From positions 46,751-95,712 of the forward strand of contig NZ_JAALLS010000019.1 of the NCBI RefSeq assembly GCF_011059105.1: a DNA stretch of 48,962 nt, read 5' to 3'. The translations under genes were made by a program, and so were the position numbers. Shown here one piece after another: positions 4,503 through 15,027 of this stretch. Source of the DNA: Fodinibius halophilus. GTDB lineage: Bacteria > Bacteroidota > Rhodothermia > Balneolales > Balneolaceae. Position 1 is the first letter of the stretch. Each line of letters starts with the position of its first letter. The notes under the pieces are model-generated. The model had not been told where the DNA came from and ran no database searches. It saw only the letters and a list, made by a program, of their open reading frames with translations.

Positions 4503-4778
4503 TTATATTTCACCGTTACATGCACTGCCTGAATATATTCCACTATATGACCAATTGCTCCATGATCCAAAATTACCAGAACTATCCATACATCTTACAT
4601 TAATGCTGTAAGCATTAACTAGGCCAGTATATTGTCGGACTATTACCTCACAGCCTCCATCTGAAGCACATGAAGAAACTTCAACATCCTGCAAAAATTC
4701 CGCTTGTGCATTTCCGATATTTGCAAAAGAAAAAAGAATAAACATTAAAGTAACAATAAAACAACTTAATTTTTTCAT
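4503..4778 (-). CDS. Small secreted Cys-containing protein (91 aa)
   Basis: An unrecognised 91-residue protein. The N-terminus MKKLSCFIVTLMFILFSFANIGNAQA is a typical signal peptide (given here only as a description of charge plus hydrophobic core), leaving about 65 mature residues. The mature part carries four Cys (SSCASDGGCEV, VRCMDSS, SACNGE), which could form two disulfides after export, and an aromatic segment with repeated W-S. It heads the AT-rich minus-strand cassette and is followed by a hairpin and the propeller lipoprotein. The placement resembles NVEALA-type small peptides next to BF3164 lipoproteins, but the NVEAL motif itself is not present. Confidence 0.6.
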   Translation of the reverse strand: MKKLSCFIVTLMFILFSFANIGNAQAEFLQDVEVSSCASDGGCEVIVRQYTGLVNAYSINVRCMDSSGNFGSWSNWSYSGIYSGSACNGEI

Positions 4779-4868
4779 AATATAGTCTGTATTTTACATT
4801 ATAATTGAATAGTTTTTCTAATCTAGCTAAAAAAAAAAAAACCAAGTCAAAAAATAGTTATTCTATAC

Positions 4869-4897
4869 TTGTTTGCTATCCAATAATCGCTTAAATT
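4869..4897 (+). promoter_or_regulatory. Candidate promoter of the metY leader
   Basis: TTG at 4869-4871 and TAAATT at 4892-4897 are separated by 20 nt. This approximates the Bacteroidota sigma pattern (TTG near -33, TAnnTTTG near -7), with only TAnnTT matched. Transcription would start around 4904, about 20 nt before the leader ORF. A 13-A tract at 4829-4841 lies just upstream, between this promoter and the divergent cassette. Confidence 0.35.
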
Positions 4898-4924
4898 AAA
4901 ACTGAAATTTCTAACCACAAGTCA

Positions 4925-5002
4925 ATGAATCAAATCGTCAAACATATTATTTGCCTCTGTTGCATGTGTATGCCTATGCCATACTTGCAACCGGAGGACT
5001 GA
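4925..5002 (+). CDS. Cys/Met-rich leader peptide of the met operon
   Basis: An ORF of 25 codons plus TGA. Residues 10-19 read CLCCMCMPMP: four Cys and three Met within nine consecutive residues, far above chance for a short spacer ORF. The stop codon lies 29 nt before an intrinsic terminator, and the Cys/Met codons overlap segment 1 of an alternative RNA fold (see the attenuator entry). This is the layout of amino-acid-sensing leader peptides, in which a ribosome stalled for lack of charged tRNA lets transcription continue. No clear Shine-Dalgarno sequence precedes the ATG, which is common in Bacteroidota. The product itself probably has no function beyond being translated. Confidence 0.65.
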   Translation: MNQIVKHIICLCCMCMPMPYLQPED

Positions 5003-5065
5003 TTTGATTCAACTTTTTTGAACAGATTTTTAAAGCCCTTCGGTCAGATCCCGAAGGGCTTTTTT
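4954..5065 (+). terminator. Transcription attenuator with leader-peptide control
   Basis: Four segments can pair in alternative ways. Segment 1 (4954-4964) pairs with segment 2 (4986-4997) in an 11-bp helix with one bulged C, holding Cys/Met codons in its loop. Segment 2 (CCGGAGG, 4991-4997) pairs fully with CCTTCGG (5037-5043, one G-U), forming an antiterminator. Segment 3 (5032-5043) pairs with segment 4 (5051-5062) in a perfect 12-bp stem with a 7-nt loop and T-run, an intrinsic terminator. A ribosome stalled on the Cys codons at 4952-4969 would cover segment 1 and free segment 2. One that reaches the stop codon at 5000 would cover segment 2 and allow termination. Confidence 0.7.
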
Positions 5066-5100
5066 AGTATCTGATCGTAGTTCTTTTCATTTACTGAATA

Positions 5101-5220
5101 CTCTTATCCAGAAAGACTGAGGGATCAGGCCCGAAGACGTCTTGGCAACCATCCTGCACATAAAATTTTTGTGTGAGAAAGGTGCCACCTCCTGCTCCGG
5201 TTTCCGGGGAAAGATGAGAA
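5101..5220 (+). ncRNA. SAM-I (S-box) riboswitch aptamer
   Basis: Strong match to the SAM-I consensus. P1 is formed by CTTATC (5103-5108) and GATGAG (5213-5218). The conserved core includes AGAAAGACTGAGGGA, CAGGCCCGAAGA and CTTGGCAACC, followed by a variable P3 hairpin, GGTGCCACCTCCTGC and a P4-like CTCCGGTTTCCGGGG. S-adenosylmethionine binding would stabilise P1 and favour the terminator at 5259-5315, shutting off metY-metX-thrA. It begins 38 nt after the leader-peptide attenuator. Confidence 0.95.
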
Positions 5221-5258
5221 ATGAGGTCATTCGTAATAAACTGCGAACAATTTTTACC

Positions 5259-5316
5259 AAGCCTCTTCTGAGATCTTCTCCCCCACCGGCGAAGATCTTA
5301 GGAGAGGCTTTTTTAT
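5259..5316 (+). terminator. Riboswitch expression-platform terminator
   Basis: A 20-bp stem (5259-5278 with 5291-5310, all pairs formed, two of them G-U) with a 12-nt loop is followed directly by a T-run. It is the off-state terminator of the SAM-I riboswitch. GAGG at 5223-5226, just after the P1 3' strand, could pair with CCTC in the terminator 5' arm, but I did not resolve a full antiterminator. Downstream, 5385-5396 is a perfect 12-nt palindrome (ACCTAATTAGGT) of unknown role. Confidence 0.9.
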
Positions 5317-5443
5317 TTGCAGTGGATTATAAAAAACTGAAACAAAAATGTGATCAATGTTCAATGAATGGTACAAAATTGACGACCTAATTAGGTTATC
5401 AATTTTTAAAACGATCCAGAAAATAAAATTAAGTAACAACTAA

Positions 5444-6796
<1,353 letters not shown>

Positions 6797-6883: not shown

Positions 6884-7933
6884 ATGAGCAACAAAAATAC
6901 TATAACTTTTGAAGAGCCTTTTATCACAGAAAATGGCGCTTCTATACCTCAGCCTACGATCGCATATCGCAGCTGGGGAGATCTGAATGAGGCCCGTGAT
7001 AATGTGGTGGTAGTATGCCATGCCCTAACCGGCAATGCCGATGCGGATGAATGGTTCAATGGACTTTTGGGGCCCGGAAAAACCCTGGACCCAACGAACC
7101 AATTTATTATCTGTCCTAATGTATTGGGCAGCTGCTACGGTACCACCGGCCCAACCAGTATTAATCCTGAAACCGGTACGCCTTACCGAGCCAATTTTCC
7201 AAAAATTACAATTCGTGATATGGTGCGTCTGCAGCAGCAACTGGTCGATGCTCTTGAGATTACCGGCATTGAGTTGCTCATTGGCGGTTCCATGGGGGGT
7301 ATGCAAGTACTGGAATGGACGATCATGGATGACCGCCCACAGGCCGCCGTACTTATTGGGATGGGCAAAGCCCACCGTCCCTGGGCCATCGGTATAAGCC
7401 ATACGCAACGGCAGGCGATCTACAATGACCCTAACTGGAACAAAGGATACTACTCCGAAGAGCATCCTCCCAAAAAGGGACTGGCACTCGCCCGTATGAT
7501 TGCCATGATTAGTTATCGCAGCGATACCGATTATGAGCATAAGTTTGCACGCCTGCAAGAGGCCGATTCTGATGAATTCCAGGTAGAATCGTATCTCGAT
7601 TACCAGGGGCAAAAGCTGGTGGAGCGGTTTGATGCTGTTTCGTATGTACGCCTTACCCAGGCTATGGACAGCCACGATGTGGCCCGCAATCGATCTTCGT
7701 ATGTAGAAGTACTGGGTGATATTGATATTCCCGTTTTGGTTATCGGCATAAATTCAGACTTACTATACCCGGTGCGAGAACAGCATGAACTTGCCCAGCT
7801 TTTACCCAAAGGGCGTTATCGCCGTATACGATCTACCCACGGCCATGATGCTTTCCTGATTGAATTTGACCAGCTCAACAAGATTATAAAACCCTTTTTA
7901 ATAGAAACGCCAACAAGAATAGTACACTACTAA
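6884..7933 (+). CDS. metX: Homoserine O-acetyltransferase
   Basis: A 349-residue alpha/beta-hydrolase-fold acyltransferase that makes O-acetylhomoserine from homoserine and acetyl-CoA in the cytoplasm. The nucleophile elbow is GGSMGGMQVLEW with Ser136. The catalytic Asp lies in INSDLLYP and the His in THGHDAFLIE. The N-terminal YRSWGDLN and the NVLGSCYGTTGP segment are also typical of MetX. It sits between metY and the aspartokinase fusion, three nt before the latter, so the operon covers aspartate activation, homoserine formation, acetylation and sulfhydrylation. Acetyl versus succinyl specificity is not certain from sequence alone; the MetY neighbour favours acetyl. Confidence 0.93.
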   Translation: MSNKNTITFEEPFITENGASIPQPTIAYRSWGDLNEARDNVVVVCHALTGNADADEWFNGLLGPGKTLDPTNQFIICPNVLGSCYGTTGPTSINPETGTPYRANFPKITIRDMVRLQQQLVDALEITGIELLIGGSMGGMQVLEWTIMDDRPQAAVLIGMGKAHRPWAIGISHTQRQAIYNDPNWNKGYYSEEHPPKKGLALARMIAMISYRSDTDYEHKFARLQEADSDEFQVESYLDYQGQKLVERFDAVSYVRLTQAMDSHDVARNRSSYVEVLGDIDIPVLVIGINSDLLYPVREQHELAQLLPKGRYRRIRSTHGHDAFLIEFDQLNKIIKPFLIETPTRIVHY

Positions 7934-7936
7934 TCG

Positions 7937-10348
7937 ATGAATACTTCTGAAACACATGTTCTCAAATTCGGTGGTACTTCACTGCAAAACCCGAATTACA
8001 TTAAGCAGTCTACCCAAATTGTTATGGACCGAACCCAGCAGGCCCATCCTTTTGTGGTAGTCTCGGCCCTTGAAGGCGTTACAGATGCTCTTATTGAGCT
8101 CACGAAAGATATCGGCAAAAAAACTGATTTAATTGAAACCGGTGTAGACAATTTACGACAAAAGCATCTGACCATTTTTGATAAACTTACCGACGGGCAG
8201 CACAAAAAACGCAACCGGCTTGACAAACTGTTTGATGAGCTTACTCAAGACCTGCATAAACTCAGCCTTGATATAGAAAATAAGCGAGCTCTCAAAGATC
8301 GCATTCTCTCTATTGGCGAACGTGCCTCTGCGCTTATTTTTGCCTCGGTGCTATCCAGTAACGGGCTGCCGGCAGAATCATTTGAGGCCCATCAATTTAT
8401 TAAAACCGACTCTACCTTTGGCAAGGCGAAGGTTAAGCAGGATACTACCCGCAAGCTAATTCGGGAGTACTTGCAACAATCTAAGTTTGTGCCCGTAGTT
8501 ACCGGCTTTATCGGTTCCGATTCTCAAAATCGAATCACTACCCTGGGGCGTTCCGGCTCTGATTATACCGCAGGCCTTGTCGCCGATGCCCTCAATGCCG
8601 ACCACCTAGAAATTTGGACCGATGTGAACGGTGTACTCTCTGCTGATCCACGTTGGGTACCTACTGCACAGTCAATTAAGGAACTTAGTTTTGGGGATAT
8701 TACGGAGCTTTCCGCTCATGGGGCAAAAGTTATTCATCCGCAAACCATACGCCCTATACAGGATAAAGGTACTACTGTACTGGTCAAAAACAGCTATAAC
8801 CCCTCCCACCCCGGCACCTCTATCACCTCGGGTTTTGAATCGAATGGGGCACTTAAAACAATTACTGTTACCGGTCCTTTTGTGAAGCTTCAAGTTGATG
8901 AAACACACGCTTTTGAACTATTTTCAAAACTAACAGAATGGTCGGAGCAAGAAACCGACTCCGAAGCAGTTGGGTTTAAAACAAGCTCAGAGTTCGAGCC
9001 GGCACGATTTATCTTAAGACAATCGTTCTTTGAAAAGGTTTCGAACCTTCTCGGCCAATGGGCATCCAGCAGAGATGTGGTGCTGGATCTGCAAAGCAAC
9101 CTCTTCAAAGTCAAAAAGTTCAGCAATCACTTCTCTGATGATGAATCGCTATCCAAACGCATTTGGGATCTGTTAGTGTCGAACAACCTGCAGCCCATTA
9201 ATGCCGAACGCAACCTTGATGAACGGTTTATCTCTTTTCTTTTTGACAGACAAGATGCCCAGCTGGCAGCGCGCCTGCTCAACGATTATCTGCAGGGCGA
9301 CCAAAAGGTTATCGATCTTTTTGTGGCCGGTACCGGGGCCGTTGGCCATACCCTGCTGAAACAACTAAAAAGCCTGGAGCCGGAAGGCATTACCTTTCGA
9401 CTTATCGGGGCCTGTAACAGCCGCAATGCCTTGTGGCAGGAAGAAGGCATTGCGCTTAAAAATGATATCGACTGGTCGGACAGCGAACCTACCAATTGGG
9501 AGCTGCTGATCGATAAACTCACCGCGCCGCATCGTAATAATCTTATTTTTGTTGATGCGACAGGCAGTGAAGAAGTGGCCCGCCTGTATCCCCAACTGTT
9601 TGAAAACGGCACCCATATTGTTACGCCCAGCAAGCTTGCCAATACGTTTGAGCAGGCATTTTTTGATGATTTGCAGTCTCTGATCAAAGAAAACAACACC
9701 TCCTTCCGCTATGAAACTACGGCCGGGGCCGGACTGCCGGTGATCTCTACCCTCAACGAACTGCAATCTGCCGGTGATAGTATCACAGAAATATCGGGGG
9801 TGGTATCCGGCACCATGACCTACCTCTTTAACCAGCTGGAACAGGGCGTGCCTTTTAGTGAAGCTATTGTTGATGCCCGCGAAAAGGGCTATGCCGAACC
9901 CGATCCGCGCGATGACCTCTCCGGCGAAGACGTGGCCCGAAAGTTTTTAACGCTGGCCCGCACACTGGGCTATAAAATTGAACGCGAGCAGATAGCGGTT
10001 GAATCCCTGATTCCCGAAGCTCTTCGCGATGTCGACAAGGATACGTTCCTGGATCAACTCAGCAACTATGACCAGACTTGGGAACAACGCATTTCGGCTG
10101 CCCAAAACAAAGGCCAAACACTGCGTTATACCGGACGTTTTAAAGATGGTAAAGTAAATATCGGGATCGAGGTACTACCCAAAGATTCTCCCATTGGTCA
10201 ACTCAAAGGAACGGATAACCTGATCCAGATTTTCTCTGATCTATATAACCAAACACCTTTAGTAATTCAGGGACCCGGTGCTGGCAAAGAGGTAACGGCT
10301 GCCGGCGTTTTAGCCGATATTTTGAAGACGGCACGGTCTTTATCCTAA
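7937..10348 (+). CDS. thrA: Bifunctional aspartate kinase/homoserine dehydrogenase
   Basis: An 803-residue fusion. Residues 1-290 are aspartate kinase (KFGGTSLQNP, SIGERASALIFA, TLGRSGSDYTA, VNGVLSADPRWVP). Residues about 305-460 are the regulatory linker. Residues 462-803 are homoserine dehydrogenase (FVAGTGAVGHTLL nucleotide-binding motif, SGTMTYLFNQLE, YAEPDPRDDLSGEDVARK). The linker does not show the usual ACT motif with SSSE-type residues seen in threonine-sensitive ThrA, so feedback by threonine is doubtful. The gene starts 3 nt after metX and lies in a SAM-controlled operon, so it may play the role of MetL. The symbol thrA follows domain order only. Confidence 0.92.
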   Translation: MNTSETHVLKFGGTSLQNPNYIKQSTQIVMDRTQQAHPFVVVSALEGVTDALIELTKDIGKKTDLIETGVDNLRQKHLTIFDKLTDGQHKKRNRLDKLFDELTQDLHKLSLDIENKRALKDRILSIGERASALIFASVLSSNGLPAESFEAHQFIKTDSTFGKAKVKQDTTRKLIREYLQQSKFVPVVTGFIGSDSQNRITTLGRSGSDYTAGLVADALNADHLEIWTDVNGVLSADPRWVPTAQSIKELSFGDITELSAHGAKVIHPQTIRPIQDKGTTVLVKNSYNPSHPGTSITSGFESNGALKTITVTGPFVKLQVDETHAFELFSKLTEWSEQETDSEAVGFKTSSEFEPARFILRQSFFEKVSNLLGQWASSRDVVLDLQSNLFKVKKFSNHFSDDESLSKRIWDLLVSNNLQPINAERNLDERFISFLFDRQDAQLAARLLNDYLQGDQKVIDLFVAGTGAVGHTLLKQLKSLEPEGITFRLIGACNSRNALWQEEGIALKNDIDWSDSEPTNWELLIDKLTAPHRNNLIFVDATGSEEVARLYPQLFENGTHIVTPSKLANTFEQAFFDDLQSLIKENNTSFRYETTAGAGLPVISTLNELQSAGDSITEISGVVSGTMTYLFNQLEQGVPFSEAIVDAREKGYAEPDPRDDLSGEDVARKFLTLARTLGYKIEREQIAVESLIPEALRDVDKDTFLDQLSNYDQTWEQRISAAQNKGQTLRYTGRFKDGKVNIGIEVLPKDSPIGQLKGTDNLIQIFSDLYNQTPLVIQGPGAGKEVTAAGVLADILKTARSLS

Positions 10349-10467: not shown

Positions 10468-13400
10468 ATGGATTCCGATCAAGGCTTATACCACTCCCAC
10501 CATGAACACGATGCATGCGGCATAGGATTTGTCGTTAATATGAAAGGGAAACAATCACATTCCATCGTGGAACAAGCGTTAACCGTGCTGCATAACCTCG
10601 ATCATCGCGGGGCTACGGGCAGCGAATCGAACACCGGTGACGGGGCGGGTATTCTCATGCAGATTCCGCATACATTTTTGGCTCATTCTTGCAGCGGATT
10701 AGGAATTGATCTGCCTCGACCGGGACACTATGGAGTAGGCATGCTCTTTTTGCCTCCCGATCGTGAAAACCGCCTGCCTTGTGAGGAACTTATTGAACAG
10801 ATCATTGAAGAAGAAGGCCAGGAAGTATTGGGATGGCGCAAGGTGCCTACCGACAATTTCTACCTCGGCAAATCTGCCATTGATGCCGAACCTTCGGTAC
10901 GTCAGCTTTTTATTGGCCGAAATGAAGATCTAAAAACAGAACTCGACTTTGAGCGCAAATTATATGTGATACGCCGTCGCACCGCTCGGGCAATTGCTGA
11001 AAGTACCCTTACGGACAAAGATTATTTCTACATCCCCAGCCTGTCAGCCCGTACCATTGTGTATAAAGGAATGCTGACGCCTACTCAGCTTAAAGAGTTT
11101 TATCCTGATCTTTCTGATCCTAAGATGAAATCGGCACTGGCGCTGGTGCACTCCCGTTTTAGTACTAATACTTTTCCCAGCTGGGAACTAGCTCACCCCT
11201 ATCGCTACCTCATCCACAATGGGGAAATCAATACCCTGCGCGGAAATCAAAACGCCATGCATGCGCGCGAAGCCCAGCTTGAGACCGACCTTTTTGGAGA
11301 TGACCTCGACAAGGTAAAACCAATTATCCAAGAATACGGGAGTGATTCTGCGAAGTTTGACAACTGCCTGGAATTTTTGATGCTGAGCGGTCGCTCACTG
11401 CCCCATGCTATTATGATGATGATTCCCGAACCCTGGGAAAAACATGAAAGTATGGATGAAGATCTGAAAGCTTTTTACGAGTACCACAGCTGTATCATGG
11501 AGCCGTGGGATGGTCCCGCCTCTATCGCTTTTACCGATGGCAAAGTCGTAGGTGCAACCCTGGACCGCAATGGGCTGCGCCCCTCGCGATACTATGTAAC
11601 TAACGATGATACGGTAATTCTATCCTCAGAAGTAGGCGTGCTCGATATCCCCCCGGAAGATATTGTTAAAAAAGACCGACTGCAGCCCGGCCGCATGCTC
11701 CTTATCGACACCGAAGAGGGACGTATCAAAAGCGATGAAGAGATCAAACAGGAGATTGCCGAAGAACACCCCTACCGTGAATGGCTGGATGACAAGCTGG
11801 TTGATTTTCATAAGTTACCAAACACTTTTAAAGATGAACTCAATCTTGAACACGAAGGCATTATACATCGCCAAAAAGCTTTTGGCTATACCTATGAGGA
11901 CCTGAATGTCAATATTGGTCCGATGGCTGAAAATATGCTGCAACCGGTGGGTGCCATGGGCAACGACGCTCCCATCGCCGTACTCTCCCGGAAACCACAG
12001 CTGTTATACAACTATTTTAAGCAGCTTTTTGCACAAGTGACCAACCCGCCTATCGATCCCATAAGGGAAGAGCTTATCACTTCTACGGAAACGATGCTGG
12101 GCTCGGATGGAAATATATTAGATCCTACCCCAGAATCATGCCGACAGATTAAGTTGGAAACGCCCATCCTGAAAAATACAGAACTTGACCGGCTTAAAAA
12201 CATTAACCGGGATGGATTTAAAAGCTGTACCCTCCCTATCCTTTTTGAAGTTAAGAAGGGCGGTGACGGCTTAGAAAAGGCGTTGGATAATCTCTTTGCT
12301 AAAGCTGATCAAGCTATTGCAGATGGGGCGAATATACTCATTCTCTCCGATCGCGATTTCGACAGCGATCACGCTCCCATTCCTGCCCTTCTTGCCGTAT
12401 CAGGACTGCATCATCACCTGGTACGTTCCGGTACACGTACCGAAGTAGGCCTTGTACTGGAATCGGGCGAACCCCGGGAAACACACCATTTTTGTACCCT
12501 GCTGGGATATGGCGTAGAGGCGATTAATCCCTATATGGCTTATGAAAGTTTGTATGATCTTATTGAGGAAGGACACCTGGAGCTGCCCTTCCAGCAGGCT
12601 CAACACCGGTATATCAAAGCCGCAGTAAAAGGCATTGTTAAGGTGATGTCAAAAATGGGAATCTCTACGATCAAATCGTATCGCGGGGCACAAATTTTTG
12701 AAGCCCTGGGTATTGACCAAGAGGTTATCGACCGATACTTCACCTGGACCGACTCACGCATCGGGGGCATTGGTCTTGATACCATTGCCAAAGAAGCGAA
12801 AATGCGACACCGACGCGCCTTCCCCAAATACCAAACTAACGGACAGGTACTGGATGAGGGCGGAGAATACAAATGGCGAAAGGGCAGTGAGTATCATGCC
12901 TACAATCCTAAAACAGTACACACGCTACAGCTGGCGACCAAAAACGGTGACTATCAGCTCTATAAGGAGTATGCTGATCTAATTGACGAGCAGGATGATC
13001 CGCCTCCAAACTTGCGTTCACTGCTGGACTTTGATTTCCAAAACTCTGAGCCTATTTCCATCGAAGAAGTGGAATCGGTTTCGGAAATATGTAAGCGCTT
13101 TAAAACCGGGGCGATGTCCTACGGATCCATCAGCCAGGAAACCCATGAGACACTGGCTATTGCCATGAATCGTATTGGTGGAAAAAGCAATACCGGCGAA
13201 GGCGGTGAAGACCCTAGCCGCTACACTACCGAAGCAAATGGGGATTCCAAACGCAGTGCTGTTAAACAGGTGGCTTCCGGACGTTTTGGCGTCACCAGCG
13301 AATACCTGACTGAAAGTGAGGAGATCCAGATTAAGATGGCCCAGGGAGCCAAGCCGGGCGAAGGCGGCGAACTGCCGGGACGAAAAGTATATCCCTGGAT

Positions 13401-15027
13401 TGCCGATGTAAGACTCTCCACCCCAGGCGTGGGTCTAATATCTCCGCCGCCGCATCACGATATCTATTCTATTGAAGATTTGGCGCAGCTTATTCATGAT
13501 CTTAAAAATGCTAATACCGAGGCCCGTATCAACGTCAAGCTGGTTTCGGCTGTGGGGGTGGGCACTATTGCAGCCGGTGTTGCCAAAGGTCATGCCGATG
13601 TCATTTTAATTAGCGGCCACGACGGGGGCACCGGGGCCTCACCGCAGACCAGTATTAAACATGCCGGACTGCCCTGGGAGCTGGGCCTTTCCGAGACACA
13701 GCAAACGCTGGTTCTTAATGATCTCCGAAGCCGGGTGAGCCTGGAGACCGACGGCCAAATAAAAACCGGCCGTGATATTGCCGTTGCTGCCCTTCTGGGT
13801 GCCGAGGAGTTTGGGTTCGGAACCAGCGCCCTCATTACGCTGGGGTGTGTAATGATGCGGGTCTGTCACCTGAATACCTGTCCCGTAGGTATTGCTACCC
13901 AAGATCCGGAGCTGCGCGAAAAGTTTACCGGTGATCCGGAGTATGTAATCAACTTTATGAAATTTGTAGCTCAACACCTGCGCGAATATATGGCTAAGCT
14001 GGGCTTCCGTACGGTTGACGAGATGATCGGTCGTGTTGACAAGCTGAAACAAAAAGAGACTGATCACTGGAAGGGACAATTCCTGGATCTTTCGCTGATC
14101 CTCAACCAGCCTGAAAATGCCCAGGAAGTCGGTAATCGCTGTATGAGCTGCCAAAACCACGGGCTTGATAATGCCATGGACATTCAAACGCTGATGGATA
14201 TTTGCGATCCGGCCCTCAACGAAGGAAAAAGTGTCCGGGCCACGCTCCCCATCACCAACACCAACAGGGTTGTTGGCACTATTGTAGGCAGTGAGCTAAC
14301 GCGGCGCCACGGAGCAGAAGGCCTCCCGGAAGATACCATCCACCTTACATTTAACGGCTCAGCAGGACAAAGCTACGGGGCTTTTATCCCCAAGGGAATG
14401 ACCCTGGAGCTGGAGGGCGATGCCAACGACTATTTTGGAAAGGGGCTCTCGGGCGGAAAGCTGATCCTGTATCCACCGAAAGATTCTCGCTTTGATCCGG
14501 CTGACAATATCATAGTGGGTAATGTCTCATTTTATGGGGCTACGGATGGGCAAGCCTACATCCGCGGCAAAGCCGGGGAACGATTTTGCGTGCGCAACAG
14601 CGGTTTGCATGCCGTAGTGGAATCGGTGGGCGACCATGCCTGTGAATATATGACCGGCGGACGGGTGGTTGTACTTGGAGACACGGGCCGAAATTTTGCG
14701 GCCGGGATGTCTGGTGGTATTGCCTATGTCCTGGACCAAGACCAGGATTTCCACAAGTATTGCAACACAGAGATGGTTGAACTGGTAAAGCTTCGCGACG
14801 ATGAAGAGATCAACCAGGTCTATGAGATGATTCGCCGCCATGCCGAATATACCGACAGCCATCGCGGCTGGAAAGTGCTGGCCAAATGGGAAGAAATGAT
14901 CTGTCAATTCGTAAAAGTACTTCCCAAAGACTATAAGCAGATGCAAAAGGCTATTCAAAAGGCCAAAGAAAAAGGTCTCAATGATGATGAAGCCGAAATG
15001 AAAGCCTTTTTACAAAAAAAGCAGTAA
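10468..15027 (+). CDS. gltB: Glutamate synthase, large (alpha) subunit
   Basis: A 1519-residue enzyme that moves the amide of glutamine to 2-oxoglutarate with electrons from the GltD subunit. A 16-residue propeptide precedes the Ntn amidotransferase nucleophile Cys17 (HDACGIGF). The central and FMN domains follow, with [23 protein letters not shown] and [14 protein letters not shown]. The 3Fe-4S ligands Cys1127, Cys1133 and Cys1138 have the family spacing ([12 protein letters not shown]). The C-terminal beta-helix domain has [12 protein letters not shown] and GGRVVVLG. Full length for the bacterial NADPH type. AAAAGG about 20 nt upstream may aid initiation. It is probably transcribed separately from the met operon, since 119 nt lie between; no terminator is evident there. 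Confidence 0.97.

Follow-up and report, generated by a model that had tools for sequence, protein, structure and literature searches.

The metY-metX-thrA transcript of Fodinibius halophilus very probably carries a trp-type attenuator that responds to the charging of tRNA for cysteine, and probably methionine, in series with a SAM-I riboswitch (we place the probability of this reading at roughly 0.86). The transcript is encoded in a 48,962-nucleotide stretch of contig NZ_JAALLS010000019.1, referred to here as the window. A first-pass annotation of the window had interpreted the DNA upstream of metY as an attenuator followed in series by a SAM-I riboswitch, and this interpretation is supported by the present analysis, in which the anatomy of the leader, its conservation among relatives and its alternative pairings are established in silico.

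Anatomy of the metY leader and its proposed mechanism

All features described below lie on the + strand and are numbered by position in the window. A promoter-like element, TTGTTT-17-TAAATT, occupies 4869-4897, with the -35 at 4869-4874 and the -10 at 4892-4897. The 25-codon open reading frame that the first-pass annotation had singled out for its CLCCMCMPMP run is present at 4925-5002 and encodes MNQIVKHIICLCCMCMPMPYLQPED; its putative regulatory codons, C10 L C12 C13 M C15 M P M P, span 4952-4981. Segment 1, over the Cys codons (4954-4963), is paired with segment 2 (4987-4997) on the basis of RNA folding and duplex energy. Segment 2 contains CCGGAGG (4991-4997), which has either segment 1 or segment 3 as its alternative partner. 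Segment 3, CCTTCGG (5037-5043), is complementary to CCGGAGG, as expected for the proposed 2:3 antiterminator, and forms part of the 5' arm of intrinsic terminator 1 (the 3:4 hairpin, 5032-5065). This terminator is located where it had been annotated, and the terminator scan gives it a stem at 5032-5062 of 12 pairs, 7 of them G-C, followed by the U-run. It was the one terminator returned by the scan of 4700-5500, against a shuffle mean of 0.3, and since the closest long ORF on its left side, at 4503-4778, is oppositely oriented, terminator 1 is not the closing terminator of that ORF. The RNA fold of 4860-5070 has an energy of -53.2 kcal/mol compared with a shuffled mean of -34.8 (z of -4.6). 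In the same fold the Cys codons lie within the 1:2 helix, and a further helix, not mentioned in the first-pass annotation, joins 4926-4936, at the start codon, to 5001-5011 by 11 pairs. This start-codon helix is seen in both the RNA fold and the alignment of the genus.

The SAM-I aptamer, which had been placed 38 nt beyond terminator 1, is found at that spacing (5101-5220), where RF00162 matches at 75.9 bits (cut-off 44.4), and it is the single SAM-I match in the organism's own genome, a draft of 91 contigs. In the window RF00162 was the one Rfam model to reach its gathering score, and no T-box model did so. Between terminator 1 and the aptamer lies a boxA-like GTTCTTT (5080-5086, 21 nt ahead of the aptamer). 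The aptamer is followed, again as annotated, by a second intrinsic terminator representing the SAM-I expression platform, a 20-pair hairpin that begins at 5259 with a U-run to 5314; this hairpin is absent from the output of the simple terminator scan of 4700-5500. The three genes had been named correctly, as the profile matches fit MetY, MetX and an aspartokinase/homoserine dehydrogenase. The product of metY, O-acetylhomoserine sulfhydrylase (L123, 5468-6796), matches TIGR01326 at 683.7 bits, over the cut-off; that of metX, homoserine O-acetyltransferase (6884-7933), is over the cut-off of PRK00175 and under that of TIGR01392; and the thrA-type aspartokinase/homoserine dehydrogenase (7937-10348) scores 680.5 bits with PRK09436, for which the cut-off is 726. 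Downstream of the met operon, and likewise on the + strand, lies a gene of the glutamate synthase large-subunit type (GATase_2, Glu_synthase; 10468-15027).

From this layout we infer the transcription start site, translation of the leader, ribosome stalling, termination, SAM binding and the regulatory logic. Transcription would begin about 20 nt upstream of the leader ORF. With Cys- and Met-tRNA plentiful, the ribosome would reach the stop codon and cover segment 2, so that segments 3 and 4 would form terminator 1. A ribosome stalled at the Cys or Met codons would instead leave segment 2 free to pair with segment 3, and RNA polymerase would pass. Beyond terminator 1 the SAM-I aptamer would be transcribed; bound SAM would lead to terminator 2, while in its absence metY-metX-thrA would be made. 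Because the two switches stand in series, expression would need low levels both of sulfur amino acids and of SAM, an AND gate whose logic is taken from the layout.

Conservation of the leader and of its pairings

We searched 146 genomes, including that of the window, for SAM-I riboswitches and obtained matches in 134. The DNA around 111 SAM-I loci, a subset of the listed matches, was taken for comparison, comprising 71 metY loci in the order of the window (Balneolales; Fodinibius is placed in Balneolaceae by NCBI), 18 metH loci, 19 metY loci outside the order and 3 others. Loci L048, L019 and L102, with downstream genes that are not close MetY orthologues, were excluded from the leader count. 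The metH label denotes the 18 loci at which the downstream protein begins MGTM[IV]QR; the one of these proteins that was examined matches PF02574, homocysteine S-methyltransferase. In the 12 genomes that gave no SAM-I match, the MetY matches are only 28-46% identical, apart from a contig-edge piece at 73% (G068) and a 35-residue piece at 77% (G085), and the independence of leader and SAM-I is therefore not inferable from these genomes. Many metY loci have a short ORF between the riboswitch and metY, and the product of one of these intervening ORFs has a CoA-binding domain (PF13380).

The Cys/Met run, for which the first-pass annotation had suggested a comparison with relatives, proved to be conserved. 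An upstream ORF with at least three Cys codons is present at 61 of the 71 metY-type SAM-I loci of the order, compared with 10 of 71 when the opposite strand of these loci is read; in shuffled sequences the frequency of such an ORF was 15-24% in the order's three metY groups. By rank, it occurs at 12/12 loci in the genus, 32/36 in the rest of the family and 17/23 among the order's remaining families; a leader with both Cys and Met is present at every one of the 12 genus loci, that of the window included. Outside the order the ORF is found at 3 of 19 metY loci, and ahead of metH at 1 of 18. Each of the nine genomes sampled at both loci has the leader at metY and no 3-Cys ORF at metH. Some loci below the three-Cys threshold have leaders with two Cys, for example MSQQQNISIAKRSCMMLCN, and at four metY loci of the order (L041, L055, L012, and L018) no leader is visible. 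Within the leader ORF, insertions and deletions are 0, 3 or 6 nt long in 12/12 rows of the genus alignment, with other lengths past the stop codon. The same ORF alignment has no excess of changes at third positions, with 13, 8 and 13 variable columns at the three codon positions.

A first terminator of -10 kcal/mol or lower stands downstream of the leader at 59 of the 71 metY loci of the order. At the other 12 the finder used returned no terminator at this threshold, and at two of them (L039 and L020) one is seen with a looser finder. The second terminator is present at 69/71 loci, a count that carries no shuffle control. The antiterminator test and those that follow it refer to the 59 loci with the first terminator; these loci represent 25 genera and are related, so the counts are not independent. 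Pairing between the region of the leader stop codon and the 5' arm of the terminator was matched by at most 10 of 200 dinucleotide shuffles at 51/59 loci, which supports the 2:3 pairing, and by at most 2 of 200 at 40/59. The antiterminator partners are located from -14 to +25 relative to the leader stop. Their sequences vary jointly by genus: CCG(G/A)AGG with CCTTCGG in the genus of the window, GAGGG with CCCTC in g19, AAGGGCT with AGCCCTT in g4 and g13, and GGAGAGCC with GGCTCTC in one g39 locus. At the other g39 locus (L099), 25 of 200 shuffles equalled the antiterminator pairing.

ORFs as short as the leader often arise by chance, and terminator 1 might be an ordinary terminator unrelated to a chance ORF. 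The opposite-strand, shuffle, metH and outside-order controls disfavor this explanation, as does the antiterminator test, and we give it next to no chance of being correct.

In the genus alignment 93.9% of the cells of the start-codon helix are paired and three of its 11 pairs are altered on both sides, so the covariation for which the helices were to be examined is seen here, within the genus. For all 33 pairs of the structure together, 92.2% of cells are paired, a figure that falls to 56.3% or less when the structure is slid along the alignment. Two of the shuffle controls for this alignment are weak, as 22 of 500 shuffles had at least as many doubly changed pairs and 82 of 500 at least as many pair types. 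The proposed 1:2 helix stood in part: it is present in the fold of the window, but outside the genus the support is weak and in aggregate only. By duplex energy, a test devised after a weak test by base count, the helix reaches the 5% level in 25/59 loci and in 8/12 within the genus, the window included; by count of paired bases it does so in 7/59. A 1:2 helix is thus likely within the genus. Five g24 loci (L086, L089, L091, L026, and L092) have no terminator in the 22-57 nt that separate the end of the leader from the aptamer, and these leaders perhaps represent another coupling of ribosome and riboswitch.

The first-pass reading presupposed a transcription start before 5062. A promoter-like element, TTGnnn-17-TAnnTT, lies 23-28 nt upstream of the leader ATG in 12/12 members of the genus (this count has no shuffle control) and agrees with such a start, but the start position itself is our prediction. 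A strict sigma-70 scan of 4700-5500 gave no + strand promoter and so does not pick up the genus element. Across the order, strict promoter matches within 55 nt upstream were found for 35 of 66 leaders, compared with 225 of 1320 mononucleotide shuffles. In 14 of these 35 leaders only 6-8 nt lie between the end of the -10 and the ATG, and the transcript may therefore start close to the ATG. For leaders with a -10-like box some 6-8 nt upstream of the ATG, L084, L090, L094 and L009 among them, the mRNA may be leaderless.

That only about half of the leaders have a strict promoter match upstream leaves some room for a different arrangement, in which the operon is transcribed from a promoter located downstream of terminator 1 and upstream of the aptamer, the leader governs a short RNA only, and the two switches do not function in series. 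By arithmetic, a promoter whose transcripts began close to the aptamer's first base could barely fit the linker at some loci, as the linker between terminator 1 and the aptamer is 18-48 nt in 58/59 loci. However, the 18-nt linker of L035 is too short, the promoter-like element precedes the leader throughout the genus, and the scan of 4700-5500 gave no internal promoter, although it also misses the pre-leader element. We consider an internal promoter to have a small probability and retain the series arrangement. By eye, a box resembling TATATT or TTATCTT stands some 20 nt upstream of the aptamer at most metH loci, and the g5 loci L041 and L055, where no leader is visible, have a promoter-like TTGCAT/TAGTAT shortly before the boxA-like site and aptamer.

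Amino acids read by the leader and sulfur physiology

Residue enrichment was measured in any ORF ending 12-45 nt before the first terminator, taking the highest count per locus. These ORFs were chosen by place alone; the terminators, however, had been located from leaders chosen for Cys and Met. Over the 59 loci there are 3.92 Cys per locus ahead of the terminator against 0.72 in shuffled sequences, and 2.68 Met against 0.44, with Pro, His and Tyr next at 0.9-1.1 against 0.4-0.6. Enrichment of both Cys and Met in ORFs chosen by place marks both sulfur amino acids. The composition of the 67 chosen leaders is partly circular because these ORFs were picked for Cys and Met; two of the 67 have no Met beyond the start codon.

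The leader might sense cysteine alone, with the Met codons suiting the helices (AUG beside UGY) or arising as a by-product. The two leaders with no further Met are compatible with this, and the comparable known leaders, in the available text of the papers that describe them, are Cys leaders (PMC8632094, PMC1262725, PMC4633059). Against it, the Met enrichment ahead of the terminator is nearly as strong as that of Cys, and Met is abundant in the 17 rhodanese leaders described below, which have different terminator and antiterminator sequences. We judge a cysteine-only leader to be possible but rather unlikely.

The leader peptides have dense CxC and CC motifs and no fixed order or spacing of Cys and Met. 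Such motifs could point to the Cys-rich nascent peptide itself as the sensor, as a thiol, metal or redox arrest peptide, and not to tRNA charging. Arrest peptides usually retain defined residues, and here it is the Cys/Met content that is kept but not the order or spacing, which makes a nascent-peptide sensor improbable. A redox influence has been speculated for the Cys-rich uORFs of mycobacteria, in the excerpt available of PMC4633059.

The first-pass annotation had reasoned that control by both amino acids would be sensible for MetY in competition with cysteine synthesis. This rationale is doubtful, as the organism's own genome has no serine acetyltransferase over the TIGR01172 cut-off and gives two hits of 34 and 25 bits. 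None of 58 genomes has a match over this cut-off, and 24 of the 58 have hits of 158-183 bits that may be serine acetyltransferases; within the genus only G001 has such a hit. A CBS/cysteine-synthase-like protein (L114) and a CysM-like protein (L118) are present, under curated cut-offs, and L122 is over the cut-off of the cystathionine gamma-synthase model. As no serine acetyltransferase is over the cut-off, homocysteine made by MetY may feed both methionine and cysteine, which would explain the reading of both amino acids by the proposed attenuator.

Known systems and related leaders

The trp-type attenuator operates by a four-segment logic, and the metY leader shares this logic, with other codons and stacked on a riboswitch. 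T-box RNA binds tRNA; here a ribosome on the leader ORF would read the charging, and of both Cys and Met. In this the metY leader is unlike the T box(Met)/SAM-I tandems, which it resembles in having a sensor of uncharged tRNA and SAM-I in series in one leader, and which the excerpted text of PMC9481103 describes as an A AND NOT B gate. The uORFC-8-2 ahead of cysS in Rhodobacterales is similar in being a predicted Cys leader with a helix over its Cys codons and an intrinsic terminator, and differs in having two Cys codons, the gene cysS and, in the text that describes it, neither a riboswitch nor Met codons (PMC8632094). The Xanthomonas SAM-I riboswitch also provides one leader that answers to SAM and to uncharged tRNA, there the initiator tRNA; unlike here, a single expression platform binds the tRNA and control is mainly translational (PMC7270179). 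Tandem attenuators are described in Salmonella mgtCBR (PMC3641672). The individual parts are known, and among the literature matches listed the nearest are the T box(Met)/SAM-I tandem (PMC9481103) and the Cys leader before cysS (PMC8632094), while none of these matches, which cover few subscription journals, places a leader-peptide attenuator and a SAM riboswitch in series. If the proposed reading is true, nature has conserved an RNA switch read by a ribosome and one read by a ligand in a single series, present at metY and absent from metH in all nine genomes sampled at both loci. Such a leader would show how cysteine, methionine and SAM can be weighed together, would lend itself readily to tests with two inputs, and would add to the known leaders a Cys/Met group from Balneolales.

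Similar leaders were sought with the pattern TGYTGYATGTGY, which has 7 matches in the organism's own genome against 2 when reversed, and 26 in six other genomes against 9 when reversed. Since the reversed pattern also matches, single matches mean little. The 26 include three metY leaders, one rhodanese leader and one leader in G112; the other 21 overlap long ORFs or have no terminator by eye. In the organism's own genome the leader MNFLNYIYKPFANMPMCMCCMCCMCTAEGRGCNFVT (L186:1447-1557, equal to G000:C12 157394-157504) is followed by a terminator and a rhodanese gene (PF00581) with no SAM-I, and is thus a candidate Cys/Met leader attenuator without a riboswitch. We examined 25 of 30 sampled rhodanese loci, leaving out L216-L220; the sample itself did not include a second copy in G007. 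A Cys/Met leader without SAM-I precedes the rhodanese gene at 17 of the 25 (L191-L206 and L208), including 16/16 of those examined with at least 72% identity to the query, and G119 at 53%; the 8 remaining loci, 50-66% identical to the query, have no such leader. The antiterminator reaches the 5% level at 15 of the 17 loci. The leader of the organism's own genome (L191) misses this level, with 18 of 200 shuffles as good, and L196 fails the test, the script having taken the wrong terminator. Together the 17 leaders contain 94 Cys and 88 Met, in ORFs chosen for Cys and not for Met. By eye, a recurring CTGCATCAG ... GGGCTT.GTGA is seen between the terminator and the rhodanese gene in several of the loci L191-L205.

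The gene cysA2 encodes thiosulfate sulfurtransferase, and the rhodanese here may likewise be a thiosulfate sulfurtransferase. The polycysteine leaderless uORFs of mycobacteria resemble the present leaders as Cys-codon leaders before sulfur genes, cysA2 among them (PMC9031893 citing Canestrari 2020; PMC4633059, PMC1262725; all in excerpt). They differ in that the Mycobacterium uORFs have no conserved terminator hairpin, according to the available part of PMC1262725, and that no SAM riboswitch is described in the available parts of the three papers (PMC4633059, PMC1262725, PMC9031893). The G112 leader, MTHPNPYIVNACFCMCCTMPLRGECGCCMC (L241:1423-1515), is followed by a terminator and then a DASS/CitMHS-type anion transporter gene; the encoded transporter is over the cut-off of the Pfam CitMHS model and under that of the DASS model.

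The boxA-like GTTCTTT is found 14-24 nt before the aptamer at 65 of the 71 metY loci of the order, compared with 122 of 35500 shuffles and 10 of 6063 windows further upstream. It is present at 0/18 metH loci and at 5/21 loci outside the order, and the four loci with no visible leader (L041, L055, L012, and L018) also have it. In other bacteria NusB/E binds boxA, as described in the available part of PMC5725501. Our guess is that the site shields the long untranslated leader from Rho. On a wider and tentative view, doubtful as a whole, the leader would have three layers, with the Cys/Met-tRNA attenuator followed by boxA, acting through a NusB/S10 antitermination complex, and then by SAM-I; the attenuator would be a transferable module, used also alone before rhodanese and anion-transporter genes, in an RNA-based sulfur regulon across the order. 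The position of the boxA-like site directly before a riboswitch raises the question of its role there. The organism's own rRNA operon has three copies of GTTCTTT in the interval from the spacer tRNAs to 23S, and the closely similar GTTCTATTACATACTGAGAA upstream of 16S.
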